A stretch of 64,000 nucleotides of DNA from Kribbella jiaozuonensis (GTDB lineage Bacteria > Actinomycetota > Actinomycetes > Propionibacteriales > Kribbellaceae). The notes below the pieces were generated by a model. That model ran no database searches and was not told the origin of the DNA. It saw only the letters and a program-made list of their open reading frames with translations. Numbering within the stretch: the first letter of the stretch is position 1; the number at the start of each line of letters is the position of its first letter. The position numbers were made by a program, and so were the translations under genes. Location: positions 1,116,001 to 1,180,000 of the forward strand of contig NZ_SZPZ01000001.1 in NCBI RefSeq assembly GCF_005233875.1, given 5' to 3'. This document shows positions 5,395 through 60,566 of the stretch, in pieces.

Positions 5395-5886
5395 ATGAGT
5401 ACGGTGATCGGTGAGCAGCTGCCCGAGGCGATGAACTGGTCCACGGAGAACTGCACGATCTCGCGGGTGATGGAGATCCTCGGTGACAAGTGGACTTTTC
5501 ACGTCCTCCGCGAGATCTTCGTCGGCGTCCGCCGGTTCGAGGACATTCGCGCCCGGGCCGGCATTCCGCGCCAGGTCCTCACCGAGCGACTCGCGGCCCT
5601 GATCGAGCGCGGCCTGATCCGCCGCCATCCGTACCGGCTGCCCGGCCAGCGCGAGCGTTCGGAGTACCGGCTGACCGAGGCCGGGCTAGACCTCTACCCG
5701 GTGCTGGTGGCAATGATCCAGTGGGGCGACGAGTACCTCCCGCTCGCCGCGGGCGCGCCGATCGAGCCGCGTCACCGCGGCGACTGCGGCGAACGCGTCA
5801 CCGTCACCATGCACTGCGAGAGCGGCCACGAGCCGACCCCGCGAGAAGTTGCCTTCCGCCCCGGTCCTGGAGCCCAACGACGCTAG
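5395..5886 (+). CDS. HxlR family winged-helix regulator
   Basis: A 163-residue protein with the HxlR winged helix: NCTISRVMEILGDKWTFHVLREIF then RQVLTERLAALIERGLI as recognition region. Cys at about residue 20, just before the first helix, is the position used for thiol or electrophile sensing in relatives such as HypR and QorR. It is divergent from the GNAT gene with only 54 bases between and may control it. The stop codon shares CTAG with the convergent DUF5753 gene. The C-terminal 45 residues are extra and low in secondary-structure signal. Confidence 0.87.
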   Translation: MSTVIGEQLPEAMNWSTENCTISRVMEILGDKWTFHVLREIFVGVRRFEDIRARAGIPRQVLTERLAALIERGLIRRHPYRLPGQRERSEYRLTEAGLDLYPVLVAMIQWGDEYLPLAAGAPIEPRHRGDCGERVTVTMHCESGHEPTPREVAFRPGPGAQRR

Positions 5887-6761
5887 ACATCCAAACGTTC
5901 GATCGCCTGACGGATCAGCTTTTCGGTTTCGCGGGGCTGGGCTGCGGTGATCGAGACGGCGTCCATCGTGACGACGTACGTGTCGAGTTCTTCGCGCTTG
6001 TCGAGATAGACCGCACTGGTCAGGTGCTCGATGTAGACGATGTCCGGAAGGTCGGCGTCGTTGAAGCGGAGCAGGGTGAACGCGCCGCCGGTCGCGGTGT
6101 AGCCGCCCTTCGAGAACGGGATGATCTGCAGCGTGACGTTGTGCCGCCGGGACGCGTCGATCAGGTGCTCGAGCTGGGCTTTGAGGATTGCCGGGCTGCC
6201 GATCGGACGTCGCAGTACGGCCTCGTCGACGACCGCCCAGAGTCGCGCGGGTCGTTGCCGCGTCAGCACGTCCTGGCGGCTCATTCGCAACGAAACAAGG
6301 CGATCCTGCTCGGTCCGCGACAACGGAACGTCCTGCCGGCCGAGCTGCATGACGGCCCGCGCGTACTCCGGTGTCTGCAGCAGACCCGGGACGAACTGCA
6401 ACTCGAACGTACGAATGAGATCCGCTGCCATCTCGAGCCCGAGATAGGAGTGGAACCACTGCGGCGTGAGGTCGTCGAACCGTTGCCACCAGCCCGGGCT
6501 GTTGGCCTCGCGGGCCAATGTCAGCAGGCGTTCGCGCTCGTCGTCGTCCTCGACCTTGTAGAGCGTGAGCAGGTCGTCGACGTCGCGCACCTTGAAGCCG
6601 ACCCGGCCGAGCTCGAGCCGGCTGATCTTGGATTCGGAGCCGCGGATCGCCCAGCCCGCATCGGTCCGGCTGATCTGCGCTTCCTCGCGAAGCCGGCGCA
6701 GGTGCACGCCAAGCATGATGCGCAGGGCGGTCGGGCCGCCGTACGCGCCAGGCTCGGTCAC
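5883..6761 (-). CDS. XRE helix-turn-helix regulator with DUF5753 (Scr1-like)
   Basis: A 292-residue protein. The Cro/C1-type HTH is at about 14-70 (LRREEAQISRTDAG region through SKISRLELGR), followed by a DUF5753 domain with the family hallmarks FVPGLLQTPEYARA and a late VYIEHLTSAVYLD. Such proteins are abundant in actinomycetes and often pair with a small DUF397 protein; none is present here. GTG 6761 is preferred over TTG 6803 because GGGAGG lies just upstream. The neighbour transcribed away from it is a DUF574-type methyltransferase, a possible target. Confidence 0.88.
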   Translation of the reverse strand: MTEPGAYGGPTALRIMLGVHLRRLREEAQISRTDAGWAIRGSESKISRLELGRVGFKVRDVDDLLTLYKVEDDDERERLLTLAREANSPGWWQRFDDLTPQWFHSYLGLEMAADLIRTFELQFVPGLLQTPEYARAVMQLGRQDVPLSRTEQDRLVSLRMSRQDVLTRQRPARLWAVVDEAVLRRPIGSPAILKAQLEHLIDASRRHNVTLQIIPFSKGGYTATGGAFTLLRFNDADLPDIVYIEHLTSAVYLDKREELDTYVVTMDAVSITAAQPRETEKLIRQAIERLDV

Positions 6762-6932
6762 CTCATGCCTCCCAGCCGCTGTCCCCGTGGTGTCCCGATG
6801 CAACAGCTGATCATTTCACAACAGATAGTGACCTCGTCCACCCCGACGCGCAGATACGGTGTGTCCAACGGGCCCTACGGTCAGTAGAGTCGGCCTCACA
6901 GATTTCCGACCACTCTCTGCGAGGTCCACCCG

Positions 6933-28778: not shown

Positions 28779-29873
28779 ATGCGAAACGTGGTGATCCTGG
28801 CGGGTGGTTCAGGGACGCGGTTGTGGCCGATGTCCAGAGACGACAGGCCGAAGCAGGTACTGCCGTTGGCAGCGGGACAATCGCTGCTGCGGGTGGCGTT
28901 CAACCGGCTCCATGGACTGGTCGAGCCGGAGAACATCTACGTCTGCACGGTCGGTGCGTACACGGACGTCGTACGCCAGGAGTTGCCGGAGCTCGGTCCG
29001 CACAACATCATCGGCGAGCCGGCGCGGCGCGACACCGCGAACGCTGTCGGGCTCGCGTCTGCTGTGGTGGCGCGGAATGATCCCGATGCGGTGGTCGCCT
29101 TTGTCGGTTCGGATCACCTGATCAGCCCGGAGGACGAGTTCCGGGCCGCGATCGAGCACGGGTTCGAGGTCGTCGAGGCACGTGGGCGGTCGTTGGTGAC
29201 GTTCGGGATCGAGCCGACGCATCCGCACACCGGGCTCGGGTACATCGAGCGGGGCGAGGCGATCGAGGGGACGCGCGCGTTCGTGGTCGATCGGTTCCGG
29301 GAGAAGCCGGACCGGGCGACGGCGGAGGAGTACCTGGCGACCGGGCGGTTCTGGTGGAACTCCGGGATGTTCGTGTGGCAGGCGTCGACGGTGCTCTCCG
29401 TACTCGATGCACTGTTGCCTGAGTCAGCCGCTCGGTTGCGCGAAGTCGCCGCGGTGTGGGACACGCCTGCGCGGGACGAAACGCTCGCGGAGATCTACCC
29501 GAACCTGCAGAAGATCTCGGTCGACTACGCCGTGATGGAGCCGGCCTCGCAAGGCAAGGTCGACGCGGACGTGGTCGTCGTACCGATGCCTGTGCATTGG
29601 TTGGACGTGGGCTCGTGGGCGGCACTGGCCGACACGTACGAAGCCGACGCCAACGGAAACAGGACCGACAGCATCACGTTGAGCTGCCTGCTGGATTCCC
29701 ACGACAACATTATCGTCACGGACGACCCGGATCATTTGGTCGCGGCGGTGGGCCTGCAGGGCCACATCATCGTCCACACCCAGGACGTGACGATGGTGTG
29801 CCCGTTGTCGGATGGCGAGCGCGTGAAGGATTTGGTGGCACGGGTGCAGTCGGACCACGCCAACTACATCTGA
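28779..29873 (+). CDS. manC: Mannose-1-phosphate guanylyltransferase (GDP-mannose synthesis)
   Basis: A 364-residue nucleotidyltransferase. The pyrophosphorylase signature is LAGGSGTRLWPMSRDDRPKQVLPL; further motifs are GEPARRDTANAVGL, VGSDHL, FREKPD and WNSGMFVW, all typical of GDP-mannose pyrophosphorylases. It makes GDP-Man from Man-1-P and GTP. Phosphomannomutase (42813) and ManA (45491) in this window supply Man-1-P. The C-terminal isomerase domain of some ManC proteins is absent. Confidence 0.9.
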   Translation: MRNVVILAGGSGTRLWPMSRDDRPKQVLPLAAGQSLLRVAFNRLHGLVEPENIYVCTVGAYTDVVRQELPELGPHNIIGEPARRDTANAVGLASAVVARNDPDAVVAFVGSDHLISPEDEFRAAIEHGFEVVEARGRSLVTFGIEPTHPHTGLGYIERGEAIEGTRAFVVDRFREKPDRATAEEYLATGRFWWNSGMFVWQASTVLSVLDALLPESAARLREVAAVWDTPARDETLAEIYPNLQKISVDYAVMEPASQGKVDADVVVVPMPVHWLDVGSWAALADTYEADANGNRTDSITLSCLLDSHDNIIVTDDPDHLVAAVGLQGHIIVHTQDVTMVCPLSDGERVKDLVARVQSDHANYI

Positions 29874-29879
29874 GTACAG

Positions 29880-30005
29880 CCCATCGCGGTGCTACGCGCG
29901 GCTCCTTCGTCGCCGTGCTACGCGCCGCACCCACCCACCCCCGGGCTTATCGCCCGGAGCATCCTTTCCGGCTATCGCCGGAGTTGCGGGCTGTCGCCCG
30001 GACCC
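29880..30005 (-). repeat. Hairpin element copy A0, inverted
   Basis: Reverse complement of the tail and last hairpins of copies A1/A2, including CCGGCTATCGCCGG and GGGCTTATCGCCCGG. Differs from A1 at scattered positions. Confidence 0.75.
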
Positions 30006-30222
30006 GTGCGCGCTGCCGCGCGAGCGACCGCCCCGTGGTGACGCCCGGTCCGCGTTCGTCGAGGCGGATCGTGGGGCGGCGTTCCGTCGTGGGCGATCGA
30101 GGCCATCGCCGCAGCACGCTTCAGTTGCCGCACCACGAGCCGTACACGAGCACAGCTCGCCCCGTTGCCCGTGCTGCGCCTAACACCCGCCTGCAGGCGA
30201 GTAGCGCGCCGCGTGGCCTACA

Positions 30223-30470
30223 ACCACATCCACCCACCACCACAGCTCGCTCAAACCCACGGGCCCGCGCCTAGCACTCACCCGCGGGCGGCAGCCCGCC
30301 ACCCCCGGCGACAGCCGGAAGGTCCCGGCGGAAGCCGGAAGTCCCCGGCGATAGCCGGAAGGTCCCGGCGGTAGCCGGAAGGGTTGCTCCGGGCGATAAG
30401 CCCCGGGGGTGGGCGGGTGCGGCGCGGAGCACGGCGAGGAACGAGCCGCGCGTAGCCCCGCGATGGGCTG
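30223..30470 (+). repeat. Hairpin element copy A1
   Basis: Starts ACCACATCC. It carries CGGGC-GGCA-GCCCG, then four 20-bp units (30304, 30324, 30344, 30364) with CCGGC-GNNA-GCCGG loops GACA, GGAA, GATA and GGTA, then CGGGCGATAAGCCC and a GC-rich tail of about 75 bases. Repeated almost intact as A2. Confidence 0.85.
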
Positions 30471-30715
30471 ACCACATCCACCCACCACCACAGCTCGCCC
30501 CGACCCACAGGCCCCGCCTAGTACTCACCCGCGGGCGGCAGCCCGCCACTCCCGGCGGAAGCCGGAAACCCCCGGCGAGAGCCGGAAGCCCCGGCGGTAG
30601 CCGGAAGATCCCGGCGATAGCCGGAATGGATGCTCCGGGCGATAAGCCCGGGGGTGGGCGGGTGCGGCGCGGAGCACGGCGAGGAACGAGCCGCGCGTAG
30701 CCCCGCGATGGGCTG
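30471..30715 (+). repeat. Hairpin element copy A2
   Basis: A tandem direct duplicate of A1, 245 against 248 bases. Four hairpin units start at about 30551, 30571, 30590 and 30610 with loops GGAA, GAGA, GGTA and GATA. Stems are unchanged while loops differ from A1. Confidence 0.85.
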
Positions 30716-30752
30716 ACCACACCCGCACGAGCACCGCGATGGGCTTACGGCA

Positions 30753-55683: not shown

Positions 55684-56292
55684 TCACTTCTCCTCAGAGC
55701 GTTGCTGGAGTTTTTCGATTTGTTCGGGGGAGATGAGCGGGATCGTGAAGACCTCCATCAAGGCCTGGCCGATCCGGTTGTAGCCCGCCGGGGTGGTGAT
55801 GTCCTCGCCGAGCGCCTTCGAGACCTGGTCCCGCAGGATGAAGACGCTCAGCTTGATCGCGGCCAGCGCGGCGGCGTACCCGCGGGGGTCCTTCGGTTTG
55901 ATGCCGTAACCACTGGCCCATTCCTCGACCGCGTCGACCCCTTCCAGGAACAGCGCGGTCGCGGTCTCGGAGCCGTCCATCATCGAGCGAACGATGTACA
56001 ACTGCAGCGGAAACGCGATCGGATGCAGCACCAGCGGATCGAGCCCGGTGAGATCACCGTCCTGCGTCAGCTCGGCCCCGATCTGCAGCATCCGATCCTT
56101 CGCGTACCGGTCGCAGGCGTCCCGCAACGCCTCCTTCGACCCGAAGTGATGCCGGACAAGCCCCGACGACACCCCCGCCTCGGCAGCAATATCCCGGATC
56201 GAGGCCCCCTCGATCCCACGCTCCCCGAACAACCTGATCGCCGCATCCCGAATCCGAGCCCGCGCCGTCAGGTCCTCTGCCGCTCGATCCAT
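55684..56292 (-). CDS. TetR family regulator of the ABC exporter
   Basis: A 202-residue TetR protein. HTH at about residues 8-55 ([47 protein letters not shown]), then a ligand domain. It is first in the operon with the ATPase and permease. A perfect 18-bp palindrome 35 bases upstream is its likely operator. Confidence 0.9.
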
Positions 56293-56326
56293 CACCCACT
56301 CCTCTCCCTACACACAAAAGCAAACT

Positions 56327-56344: not shown

Positions 56345-56393
56345 CAAGTGCTTTGAGGTGGGTACTGCGGTCAGCCCCGCGTTCTCCGCAGCT

Positions 56394-56641
56394 GCTTTCT
56401 TCGTCGCTACGCTCCTCAGCGCACCCGCTCCGCCCGCACCCGCCCACCCCCGGCTCATCGCCGTACATCCCCTTCCGGCTATCGCCGGGTCTTCCGGCTA
56501 TCGCCGGACCGTGCCGGCTATCGCCGGAGTGGGCGGCTGCCGCCGCGAGTCGCTCGCTGCGCTCGCGGTGACTGCTGGCCGGGTCAATCGATGACTGGAC
56601 CGTGGAGGCTGGCGGGTGTCGACTCCTGCTGTCATGACGCG
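56394..56641 (-). repeat. Hairpin element copy B1
   Basis: Inverted orientation. Three CCGGC-TATC-GCCGG hairpins at 56475, 56494 and 56514 (GATA loops on the minus strand). Bases 56394-56452 are a perfect 59-bp inverted match to 58557-58615. Confidence 0.85.
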
Positions 56642-56659
56642 AATGGGTGCGATCGGCCC

Positions 56660-56900
56660 CGGCGTGCTACGCAGCTGCTTTCTTCGTCGCTTCGCTCCTC
56701 AGCGCAGCTGCTCCGCGCGCACCCCCACCCACCCCCGGCTCAGCGCCGGAGCATCCCTTGCGGCTATCGCCGGAGTGGCGGCTGCCGCCGCGGATCGCTC
56801 GCCGTGACCGCTCAGGCCGGGACTGGCCGATGACATGGACCGTGGAGGCGGCGGGTGTCGACTCGTGCTGTCCCGACGCGGGCGAGTGTGAGCCGCCCGC
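56660..56900 (-). repeat. Hairpin element copy B2
   Basis: A diverged direct copy of B1 about 240 bases on. It keeps the CTTTCTTCGTCGC start and the GGACCGTGGAGGC segment (56837 against 56597), but only one TATC hairpin remains. Confidence 0.75.
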
Positions 56901-57159
56901 GCGCCGGGGCTCAGCGTCGCGCATCCTTTCCGGCTATCACCATATCTGCCAGACGCCGCTGGCGATTTGCGCGGCCGATTGCGCATTCGGGCTGTCCGGC
57001 GCGCTTTGCGGCGGGCCGTGGTGGACCTCATTCTGCTCTGGCCGAGACGACCTAGTGTTAGCTCCTCCGAACGCGAAATCACCTGATCGAGTGCTCGGGC
57101 CTCGTGATGTGAGACCGGTCACTAGACGCCAGTCGCGCACGGCCTGGGATGCTTCTCGA

Positions 57160-57501
57160 ATGAGATCAAACGGCGCATTAGGTCGCGCGCGGAGCGTCCT
57201 CCGCGACGGAGCCAGATTTGAACAGCCGCTTCTGAATCAACCGGCACGCTGGCTTTTGCGAGCTATCTTGATGGGCGCGTGGTCCGCCGTTTGCGGTGCG
57301 CTAGCCTTCCTCATCCTGCTCGGCATGACGGTCGGTCGGTTCCTGTTCCACGGCTCTGAGCGCTTAGGCCATCTACTTGAGGTCGGGGCGCTAGCACTCG
57401 GCATCTTGGCGCTTGTGACCCTCGTTCTGGTGGTGTGGAAGGTGGACCGACCAACGCCGATGTCGGCTGTATCCACGAGCGAGGTAGGACGGGAGCAGTG
57501 A
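57160..57501 (+). CDS. Small two-helix membrane protein, first gene of foreign-looking module
   Basis: A 113-residue protein with membrane helices at about 38-63 and 73-97. No known domain. Codons include two TTA and three CTA leucines, which are rare in the neighbours, and many A/T third positions. The start at 57160 lacks a clear ribosome site; GTG 57109 is an in-frame alternative. Its stop overlaps the next gene's GTG, so the two are a unit. Confidence 0.6.
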   Translation: MRSNGALGRARSVLRDGARFEQPLLNQPARWLLRAILMGAWSAVCGALAFLILLGMTVGRFLFHGSERLGHLLEVGALALGILALVTLVLVVWKVDRPTPMSAVSTSEVGREQ

Positions 57502-58142
57502 AGCACTCTGCCCTAGTCGTCCTCGTAGTCATCTTGTTCGCAGTCCTCGTGGCATCGGCCTTCTGGGCCGGTCGAGAGTCAGTCCGGGCGATCCGCAGGT
57601 GGCGTGCAGGACTCCGGCAGCCGCTGATTTCTCTCGATCGAGTTACCGCCGCGACTCTTCCGCCTCATTGGCCAGTGAACGCCACGAGGTGGCCGAAACC
57701 ATTTGCCGACGGCGAACGGCAGTTGACGCGCGACATCTGTGCAATCTACGCGCATGAGGCGTGGCGTATGCATGGAAGGACCCGAGCTACTTCGGAGATG
57801 GCGCTGGTGGTCGGCGGCGCCTGGCTCGGCACGACTCTGCCTAACACGCTTCAGACGTTGTTTGCAGGGGAGCGGACCTTGCTGCTCGGATTCTTTTCGA
57901 GCGTGTTCCTCGATCCTCACTGGTGGAACGTGGTGTTGCCCGGAGCAGTCATCGCCGTAGGTCTGAATCTGCAAAGCGAGGCAGACGGCATTGAACTCGT
58001 GAAGGCTGCATACGCTGACGCAGCTCAGGTGCCGGTCAGGCCGCCAGGGACTGCGCAAAAACTGAGTGAGCAACCGTTGGCCGCTCGTCCGAGACTCGGT
58101 CTTCTGGATCGAGTTCGGCAGGCCTGGAGTAATCGGAGATGA
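57498..58142 (+). CDS. Membrane protein of unknown function, second gene of module
   Basis: A 214-residue protein with an N-terminal helix (ALVVLVVILFAVLVASAFWAG), a soluble part of about 60 residues with WRMHGRTRATSEMAL, then two more hydrophobic stretches (VVGGAWLGTTLPNTL and WWNVVLPGAVIAVGL) and a basic C-terminal tail. No family recognised. GGGAG is upstream of GTG 57498. Codon use is unlike the flanks, with frequent TTT, CTT, GCA and AAA. Confidence 0.65.
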   Translation: MKHSALVVLVVILFAVLVASAFWAGRESVRAIRRWRAGLRQPLISLDRVTAATLPPHWPVNATRWPKPFADGERQLTRDICAIYAHEAWRMHGRTRATSEMALVVGGAWLGTTLPNTLQTLFAGERTLLLGFFSSVFLDPHWWNVVLPGAVIAVGLNLQSEADGIELVKAAYADAAQVPVRPPGTAQKLSEQPLAARPRLGLLDRVRQAWSNRR

Positions 58143-58442
58143 TCCCCGAACGCCCCGCCGATCACCAGATGCTCGTGACGCCGGTCCCGCGTTCCGGACA
58201 GCGCTGTGCCGCTGCCGCGGTCGGACTTTCCCGCTCCTGCATGAGAAGCGGAGGGCTGTGGCCAGCGATTGGCCGGGAATAGTTGGCGACAAGGCATCGA
58301 CGGCGCCGTGACTGGGGCTGTCGCCTCCGCAGGCGAGATCGTCACTCGGCTCTGAGCCAGGGGCGGCGGAGTCGGGCGAGTCTCGCGCAGCACATGCCTG
58401 GGCGGATCGTGAGACACCTGACGCCACGGCTCGCCTGGACGA

Positions 58443-58640
58443 CCACGGCACGCCGTGGACCGCGGGCGGCAGCCCGCAGATTCCGGCGATAGCCGGAAAA
58501 GTCCGGCGATAGCCGGATGACCCGGCGATAGCCGGAAGGGGATGCACCGCGCTGAGCGGGGGTGGGCGGGTGCGGGCGGAGCGGGTGCGCTGAGGAGCGT
58601 AGCGACGAAGAAAGCGGCCGCGTAGCCCGCGGGGTAGACC
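58443..58640 (+). repeat. Hairpin element copy C
   Basis: Direct orientation. It starts with a 7-bp stem CCACGGC/GCCGTGG, then GCGGGC-GGCA-GCCCGC, three CCGGC-GATA-GCCGG hairpins at 58483, 58503 and 58522, and the tail with the 59-bp inverted match to B1 (58557-58615). Confidence 0.85.
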
Positions 58641-58710
58641 GCATTCCGACCGGTAAGAAGGTTACTTCAGTGTGACAAAGGGTCGTAGTTTGTTGACAGA
58701 GGGGTGTCTG

Positions 58711-58763: not shown

Positions 58764-60566
58764 ATGAGGAAGTTGTTGGCGGTGCTGGGGGCCTTGTGTT
58801 TGGCGGTGGTTCCGGGTGCGGCGTACGCGGCTGATCCGGTGAAGGATCCGGCCAAGAAGGTGATCAAGATCGGGGTGACCCAGTCGGTCGACTCGATGAA
58901 TCCGTTCTTGGCTGTGCGGCTGGTGACCGGGTCGATCCAGCGGATGATCTACGGCTTCCTCACGGTGCCGGACTCGAAGACCCTGCAACCCAGTCCGGAT
59001 CTCGCCGAGTCCTGGACAACGTCGCCGGACGGGCTGACGTGGACGTTCAAGATCCGGCAGGCGAAGTGGTCGGACGGGCAGCCGATCACGGCGGACGATG
59101 CGGCTTGGACGTTCAACAAGATGATCACCGACGACGGCGCCAAGACCGGCAACGGTCCGGCCGTCGCGAACTTCCAGAGCGTCACCGCGAACGGCCAGGA
59201 GCTGACCATCAAGCTCAAGACCCCGCAGGCGTCGATGCTCGACAACCCCGTCCCGATCATGCCCAAGCACGTCTGGGAGAAGGTCAAGAACATCTCGGAG
59301 TACGACGCTGAGGTGTACCCGACCGTCGGCAGCGGACCGTACGTCGCGGTCGAGCACAAGAAGGACCAGTTCGTGCGGCTCGAGGCGAACCCGCAGTACT
59401 GGCGTGGGCGGCCGAAGGTCGACGAACTGCAGGTGATCTTCTACGACAACCCGGCCGCCTCGATCGTCGGGCTGAAGAAGGGTGACATCGACCTGATCGG
59501 GCGGCTGAACCCGCCGGACTTCGAGTCACTGAAGGGCGATGACAACATCGTCCAGTGGAACACGCAGGGCCGGCGGGCGGCGTACCTGCAGATCAACCAC
59601 GGCGCGACGACCAGCGACAACAAGCCGATCGGCGACGGCCACCCGGCCCTGAAGGATCCGAAGGTACGGACCGCGCTGCACTACGCGATCGACAAGCAGA
59701 AGCTGGTCGACGAGGTCCAGGGCGGGCTCGCGAAACCGGCCGACGGATCGATCATTCCGCCGCTGTACAAGGACTTCTTCTGGGAGGCGAGCGGCGCCGA
59801 GAAGGTGACGTTCGACCTCGCGAAGGCCAACAAGATCCTCGACGACGCCGGGTACAAGAAGGGACCTGACGGCGTACGGACGATGCCGGACGGGTCGCGG
59901 AAGCTGCAGTTCCGGTTCAGCATCCACACGGACACGCCGATCGAGGACAAGCTCGCGGAGTACCTGACCGGCTGGTTCAAGGAGATCGGCATCACGCTGA
60001 CGACCAAGCGGCTCGACTCGAGCAAGTTCACCGAGGAGACCGGTACGACGGCGCTCTTCGACATCGCGATCAGCGGCTGGTCGGTGAACCCGGACCCGGA
60101 GGAGGTGCTCGGCACGCATCTCTGCAGCCGGCGTCCGACCGCGTCCGGGCAGGGCGGCGGGACCGAGTCGTTCTACTGCGACCCGCAGTACGAAAGCCTG
60201 TATCTGCAGCAGCAGAAGGAGCTCGACCGGACCAAGCGCGCCGACACCATCAAGAAGATGGAGGAGCGGCTCTACACCGACGCGCCGGTGATCGCGTTGT
60301 ACTACCCGAACGATCTCGAGGGCTACCGCAAGGACCGGATCGCCAGCATCACGCCGATCCCGGAGGACAAGGGCCTGCTGTACGGCGGGTCCGGGTACTG
60401 GCCGTTCTACACGCTCGAGGCGGTGTCGAAGGACGGAGTCACGGCCGAGAGCGGTGGGATGAGCGGCGGCGTGATCGCGGGCATCGCGGCGGCCGTGGTC
60501 GTCGTACTGATCGGTGGGTTCTTCGTACTGCGACGCCGTCAGGGCGCGGCCGATGAGCGCGAATGA
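58764..60566 (+). CDS. Oligopeptide-type ABC substrate-binding protein with C-terminal membrane anchor
   Basis: A 600-residue SBP_bac_5 protein. The signal peptide ends in AYAADP and has no lipobox cysteine. The body has the family pattern (QSVDSMNPFLAVRLVTGSIQRMIYGFL, ...VALYYPNDLEGY). Instead of a lipid anchor it has a C-terminal helix (VIAGIAAAVVVVLIGGFFVL) followed by RRRQ, so it would be anchored at the carboxyl end. ATG 58764 starts the signal peptide. It overlaps the first permease by four bases. Confidence 0.92.
   Translation: MRKLLAVLGALCLAVVPGAAYAADPVKDPAKKVIKIGVTQSVDSMNPFLAVRLVTGSIQRMIYGFLTVPDSKTLQPSPDLAESWTTSPDGLTWTFKIRQAKWSDGQPITADDAAWTFNKMITDDGAKTGNGPAVANFQSVTANGQELTIKLKTPQASMLDNPVPIMPKHVWEKVKNISEYDAEVYPTVGSGPYVAVEHKKDQFVRLEANPQYWRGRPKVDELQVIFYDNPAASIVGLKKGDIDLIGRLNPPDFESLKGDDNIVQWNTQGRRAAYLQINHGATTSDNKPIGDGHPALKDPKVRTALHYAIDKQKLVDEVQGGLAKPADGSIIPPLYKDFFWEASGAEKVTFDLAKANKILDDAGYKKGPDGVRTMPDGSRKLQFRFSIHTDTPIEDKLAEYLTGWFKEIGITLTTKRLDSSKFTEETGTTALFDIAISGWSVNPDPEEVLGTHLCSRRPTASGQGGGTESFYCDPQYESLYLQQQKELDRTKRADTIKKMEERLYTDAPVIALYYPNDLEGYRKDRIASITPIPEDKGLLYGGSGYWPFYTLEAVSKDGVTAESGGMSGGVIAGIAAAVVVVLIGGFFVLRRRQGAADERE

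Follow-up and report, generated by a model that had tools for sequence, protein, structure and literature searches.

A 59-bp inverted repeat in Kribbella jiaozuonensis is the best-matched part of two facing arms of a dispersed repeat family whose partners appear to exchange sequence

Introduction

The REP sequences described so far are 20–40 bp long, form one stem-loop and carry a GTAG or CGTC tag; they are dispersed, intergenic and arranged as facing dimers (BIMEs) near the 3′ ends of convergent genes, with dimer spacers mostly of 20–100 bp (PMC3733652). CGTC families also occur without a dedicated transposase, and single REPs may be the remnants of dimers (PMC3733652). In REPINs, paired inverted repeats form a unit that goes with RAYT transposases (PMC3116915). 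Facing repeats may also recombine to give natural inversions, as in Wolbachia, where an insertion sequence flips between its own ends (PMC3004938).

The DNA analysed here, hereafter the window, is a stretch of 64,000 nucleotides from Kribbella jiaozuonensis, in which a perfect inverted repeat encloses two open reading frames. We find that this repeat belongs to arms that resemble REP/BIME dimers in being dispersed, intergenic and set as facing dimers at gene 3′ ends, and resemble REPINs in that paired inverted repeats form a unit. They differ from REP/BIME elements in length (about 110–250 nt), in being built of a terminal hairpin of ∼65 nt and arrayed GNNA hairpins that bear no tag, and in facing each other across gaps of about 0.3–7 kb in one orientation only. 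Whereas REPINs go with RAYT transposases, no Y1 transposase was found in any arm-bearing genome searched, and whereas the Wolbachia insertion sequence flips between its own ends, in Kribbella it is a resident two-gene module between arms that has been flipped. Literature searches for repeats in Kribbella, at the level of paper listings, brought up no description of such elements. The inverted repeat is probably a facing pair of arms from a Kribbella-specific dispersed family, akin to REP/BIME dimers but larger, whose partners exchange sequence.

Results

The inverted repeat and its arms in the window

The preliminary description had reported a 59-bp perfect inverted repeat around three copies (B1, B2 and C) of a hairpin element and two genes of unusual codon use, and all of this holds. 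Bases 56394–56452 are the exact reverse complement of 58557–58615 (59 of 59 positions), B1 and B2 are tandem copies in the same direction with C facing both, and the two ORFs have a GC3 of 0.69 and 0.65 against 0.81–0.97 in eight other genes of the window. The features considered are the following.

29865–30727, no strand assigned: another facing pair of the family, with arms of a diverged type, in the spacer of two convergent genes
55684–56295, minus strand: flanking TetR-family gene (PF00440, E 2.3e-17), pointing away from the unit
56375–56580, plus strand: arm B1, outer tip at 56375, located by profile and alignment and used as the query with 63 own-genome matches; from the tip inwards it consists of the terminal hairpin (first ∼65 nt), a C-rich box, three CCGGCTATCGCCGG hairpins and a GGCGGCTGCCGCC hairpin
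56394–56452, plus strand: left copy of the 59-bp inverted repeat, tested by exact match
56658–56802, plus strand: arm B2, tandem same-direction copy of B1 with fewer hairpins, located by direct repeats and blast
57160–57501, plus strand: ORF1, 113 aa, two hydrophobic segments, no family
57498–58142, plus strand: ORF2, 214 aa, one N-terminal hydrophobic segment, an orphan
58465–58634, minus strand: arm C, facing B1, outer tip at 58634, 90% like B1 over 170 nt
58557–58615, minus strand: right copy of the 59-bp inverted repeat, tested by exact match
58764–60566, plus strand: flanking solute-binding protein gene (SBP_bac_5; PF00496, E 1.4e-84), pointing away from the unit

The likeness of B1 to C extends past the 59 bp, reaching 87 nt at 92% (56366–56452 against 58557–58643) and, in a second stretch, 89 nt at 88% (56448–56536 against 58474–58562), and a 26-mer from the inverted repeat has 3 matches in the window versus none in 100 shuffles; the inverted repeat is therefore not a product of chance. 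Taken with the 63 matches that B1 finds in its own genome as a blast query, these results also rule out an assembly error as its origin. B1 and C are ∼170-bp arms of a dispersed repeat family, and the 59-bp repeat is where the two agree best. B1 and C are reciprocal best matches among the 57 near-complete arms in the fetched regions of their own genome, a count from which the duplicate contig region L014 was dropped, and B2, 283 nt from B1, matches it at 86% and 81% over two stretches.

Pfam and NCBIfam searches with the four proteins encoded within the unit and next to it revealed neither a recombinase nor a transposase, and the 25 bp outside either tip of the B1/C unit, where the preliminary description had proposed to look for a target-site duplication (beside 56380 and 58640), hold none. 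ORF2 was found in one of 38 Kribbella genomes, its own, and has no relatives by a pattern-based scan of genome contigs or in plasmid or phage collections. Its residues 86–126 give a weak PADLOC match (PDC-M18B, best E 0.0086), which for a role in defence is a lead rather than a result.

Distribution and pairing of the arms

The arms are multi-copy, almost always paired tip-outwards and mostly located in spacers at gene 3′ ends. A covariance model built from 30 arms has matches in 31 of the 38 Kribbella genomes at E ≤ 1e-3 and, at E ≤ 1e-6, in 25 of 38 genomes of the genus versus none of 158 others of the order; an exact arm pattern matches K. rubisoli and K. pratensis. The outer end of an arm is sharp and begins CCCCGCG, with an outer box GTACTGCGGTCAGC common to some copies, and the ∼65-nt terminal hairpin is followed by a C-rich box and by 14-nt hairpins in a variable array. 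By reading, the CCGGCTATCGCCGG hairpins are untagged, and CGTC is confined to the loop portion of the terminal hairpin.

Among the best 150 matches listed (98 candidates being scored per genome), neighbours within 2.5 kb stood in +− order 19 times, ++ 5 times, −− 6 times and −+ never, with one −+ pair at 4.3 kb; the 19 +− pairs include one near-identical contig copy (C11/C6), and orthologous units across species are not independent. As judged by our own GC-by-codon-position rule rather than an annotation tool, the neighbouring gene reads toward the arm for 33 outermost arms (at a median of 37 nt) and away from it for 15, with 4 undecided; the same rule supplied the gene calls at the 29865–30727 pair, at L191 and at the ABC-csoR site. 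A strict rule that each arm marks the 3′ end of the upstream gene was rejected, since it fails for 15 of the 48 assignable arms. The B1/C unit belongs to this rarer group, both the TetR and the solute-binding protein genes reading away from it.

Comparison with Rfam covariance models gave a single chance-level match, so a known RNA family was rejected as the identity of the arms. Arm C has no match in plasmid or phage collections, and a 22-base arm pattern has none in viral contigs; with the corresponding result for ORF2, a phage or plasmid vehicle was likewise set aside. In the K. jiaozuonensis genome itself, designated G000, six contigs (C5, C6, C7, C8, C10 and C12) have an end no more than about 450 bases away from an arm, which suggests that these repeats interrupt the assembly. 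L013 (on C11) and L014 (on C6) are 99.7–99.9% identical, C11 repeating part of C6, and raw copy counts are thus slightly inflated. In G011 (L191), arms lie beside a gene with the same sequence start as a gene at the 29865–30727 pair of the window.

A fold specific to one strand

Base-pair variation among the arms indicates that the fold matters on one strand, running from the inside of the pair outwards. On this strand, inner-stem column pair 69–106 is GC in 12 arms, AU in 9 and GU in 8, with no AC; column pair 72–103 is UG in 13, CG in 13 and UA in 4; and column pair 68–107 is CG in 19, UG in 10 and UA in 1. Over the inner stem as a whole, 65 arms from other Kribbella genomes give 372 Watson–Crick cells, 56 outward-strand wobbles, no other-strand wobble and 84 other cells, while 62 arms of G000 give 343, 59, 5 and 67, respectively; with both sets pooled, G·T on the outward strand outnumbers A·C by 115 cells to 5. 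In the outer stem the asymmetry has the same direction but is weaker (30 versus 15 and 20 versus 9 cells); the stem register was chosen by most Watson–Crick cells, and one of eight column pairs (21–45) is mostly T–C, a non-pair.

The 14-nt hairpins point the same way. Read on the outward strand of 132 unique arms, 341 of 397 have a GNNA loop, compared with 207 of 2046 for hairpins of this kind across all fetched loci, a background that still includes the arms themselves, and 301 of the 341 carry C or T at the third loop position; arm copies being related by descent, neither stem nor loop counts are independent events. It is this variation among G–C, A–T and G·T with almost no A·C, together with the GNNA loops of the outward strand, that argues for a fold that matters on one strand. 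RNA GNRA loops have a purine at the third position, while GNNA loops with a pyrimidine there form what we take to be a very stable class of DNA tetraloops.

Likeness of partners and inversion at the SDR-PadR locus

Facing partners are on average 0.829 alike versus 0.747 over all arm pairs, a likeness reached in none of 20,000 shuffles (p about 5e-5), where 6 of the 19 partner pairs are combinations from L033 and a further 2 each come from L030 and the window, with L014 dropped. The arms of L015 are each other's best match, as are B1 and C; the pairs of L017, L018 and L025 show no special partner likeness. The L015 unit, which carries the SDR-PadR module, is common to G000 and G034 (L112 in the latter), and its arms are 96.5% and 98.3% alike within species, 91–94% alike between species, with a number of hairpins that follows the species. 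The arms of this unit evolve in concert. L018/L120 is a counter-example, in that at least the left arm of L018 and the right arm of L120 find their best match in the corresponding arm of the other species rather than in their partner.

The SDR-PadR module has a substantial match in 10 genomes (partial in G023); G025 and G002 contain only short fragments of it and were left out of the comparison of orientations. The uninverted order, namely LacI on the plus strand, SDR on the minus, PadR on the plus and last a 717-aa gene on the minus strand, is seen in G026, G018, G012, G032, G011, G005, G008 and G023, the 717-aa gene of G008 not being found within the fetched stretch. The module is inverted relative to its flanks in G000 and G034, and in those two only are there arms on both sides, G011 having them on one side. 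An alignment of G000 with G026 is collinear to 4994, inverted over 5436–6891 and collinear again from 7295; the tips of the arms fall at about 5021 and 7265, which places the breakpoints about 30 nt from them. A leftover partial arm lies inside the inverted unit, as would follow from the presence of one unit on either side before the flip. Transposition of the unit between places had first been suspected and was rejected, as G000 and G034 hold it at the same place; the inversion is most likely one event, at one locus, common to two related genomes.

The likeness of partners and an inversion where arms bracket the module support recombination between arms, including inversion, for the family. 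The arms appear to exchange sequence and to have flipped the intervening DNA at least once, and the earlier suggestion of an invertible cassette can be retained in this form, for the family and at this one other locus, rather than for the window unit itself. Gene conversion would be the main form of recombination between facing arms and would account for the identity of B1 and C over 59 bases, and an occasional crossing over between such arms may flip the DNA in between.

Contents of the spacers

The spacer between the TetR and solute-binding protein genes was compared at 32 loci, our own and those of 31 relatives, in 20 of which the two genes are near each other. The spacer is short (about 130–200 bp) in 10 of these 20, contains other DNA and no arms in 7 (by reading, an amidase-like gene in G034 and phosphotransferase-like genes elsewhere), and contains an arm pair in 3 (our own, G033 and G022), with unlike middles. 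These varying contents, along with the presence of ORF2 in one genome of 38 and its lack of relatives, mark the module as private to this genome and the spacer as a hot spot; conservation of the module in place without repeats across the genus, which the preliminary description had named as evidence against recent mobility, is not what the 38 genomes show.

At L022, two relatives, G034 and G018, have the two genes identically placed and oriented but no arms, and in G000 about 0.8 kb and 0.7 kb of arm-bearing DNA have been added on either side. At the ABC-csoR site, outer arms in three species enclose three differing interiors, one with IS21-like genes (names by reading). Bracketed genes are thus often bystanders. 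Arm presence differs between species at the sites compared, and when all fetched loci were compared with one another, those that are unlinked had arms in common and no long middle. The 13-bp spacer at site A of G034, first considered as a clean empty site, is by eye better explained as a deletion between two copies of GCTAC, one within the left arm and one within the right flank.

In other species the same convergent spacers contain sequences that also form hairpins but are unrelated to the arms, at site A (L128, L129 and L216) and at L134, L138, L139 and L141. One sort of such sequence recurs at two different sites.

Discussion

The Kribbella arms present a case in which facing dispersed repeats are tied, with breakpoints within about 30 bases, to the inversion of a gene module between species, and in which the partners of the same repeats evolve in concert. 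Since the strand that bears the fold is now known, they also make it possible to ask cleanly whether REP-like repeats that lack a transposase act as single-stranded DNA or as RNA.

The sharp outer ends of the facing arms, the restriction of ORF2 to its own genome and the variation in arm presence between species at the compared sites would each be consistent with a composite transposon or MITE-like element, with the arms as terminal inverted repeats and ORF1–ORF2 as cargo. We nevertheless regard such an element as improbable, and the composite mobile unit first proposed for the window finds no backing: the unit has neither a target duplication nor a transposase inside, ORF2 is nowhere else, unlinked fetched loci share arms and no long middle, arms were added beside resident genes at L022, and the short spacer at site A of G034 looks, by eye, more like the outcome of a deletion through a short repeat than like a site that was never occupied. 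Nor was one and the same cargo, ends included, found at two unrelated places, ORF2 occurring once in 38 genomes. Facing dimers, spacers near gene 3′ ends and hairpins resembling REPs (PMC3116915; PMC3733652) recall REPIN-like elements moved in trans by an IS200/IS605-type Y1 transposase (RAYT). This origin is very improbable here, however, as Y1_Tnp (PF01797) is absent from the arm-bearing genomes among the 38 searched, its one occurrence being in G008, which has no arm match, whereas the same search was positive in 5 of 14 control genomes; by reading, the hairpins also lack the GTAG or CGTC tag.

What the fold does is a separate matter. The arms might serve as bidirectional transcription stops, the far arm, read outwards, folding before a transcript runs antisense into the opposite gene, and this has in its favour a fold on the outward strand, the 33 of 48 assignable outermost arms located behind a gene reading toward them at a median of 37 nt, and the presence of unrelated hairpin-forming sequences in the same convergent spacer of other species. 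It is a possibility that we hold only tentatively: 15 of the 48, including both in the window, face a gene reading away, no U-tract follows the hairpin, 301 of 341 loops have C or T in third position rather than the purine of RNA GNRA, and enrichment behind genes can also arise because insertions are tolerated there. These pyrimidines in GNNA loops, presumably of the stable DNA class, and a strand-specific fold with the 3′ end at the tip would instead suit processing of the arms as single-stranded DNA by an enzyme that spreads them. That role is unlikely, though worth keeping in view, given that no candidate enzyme emerged, no copy was seen moving and the plasmid, phage and viral collections yielded no match. 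Its fuller form is doubtful: Kribbella would possess genus-specific paired ends, recognised as single-stranded DNA and spread by a putative enzyme, whose facing copies homogenise themselves and act as natural flip points, rearranging accessory genes between core genes.

If, as we favour, the inverted repeat is a facing pair of REP/BIME-like arms that exchange sequence, the two orphan ORFs would have come to be enclosed within a spacer where accessory genes accumulate, through their own entry into an existing unit or through units landing on both sides of them.

Among other occupants of such sites, phosphotransferase-like (APH) genes recur in differing spacers and species (L082–L084, L086, L090, L091, L220 and L221), as if single genes move among permissive spacers. 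At L082 of G032, a TetR/solute-binding protein spacer, an smpB-like reading frame stands beside the phosphotransferase-like gene.
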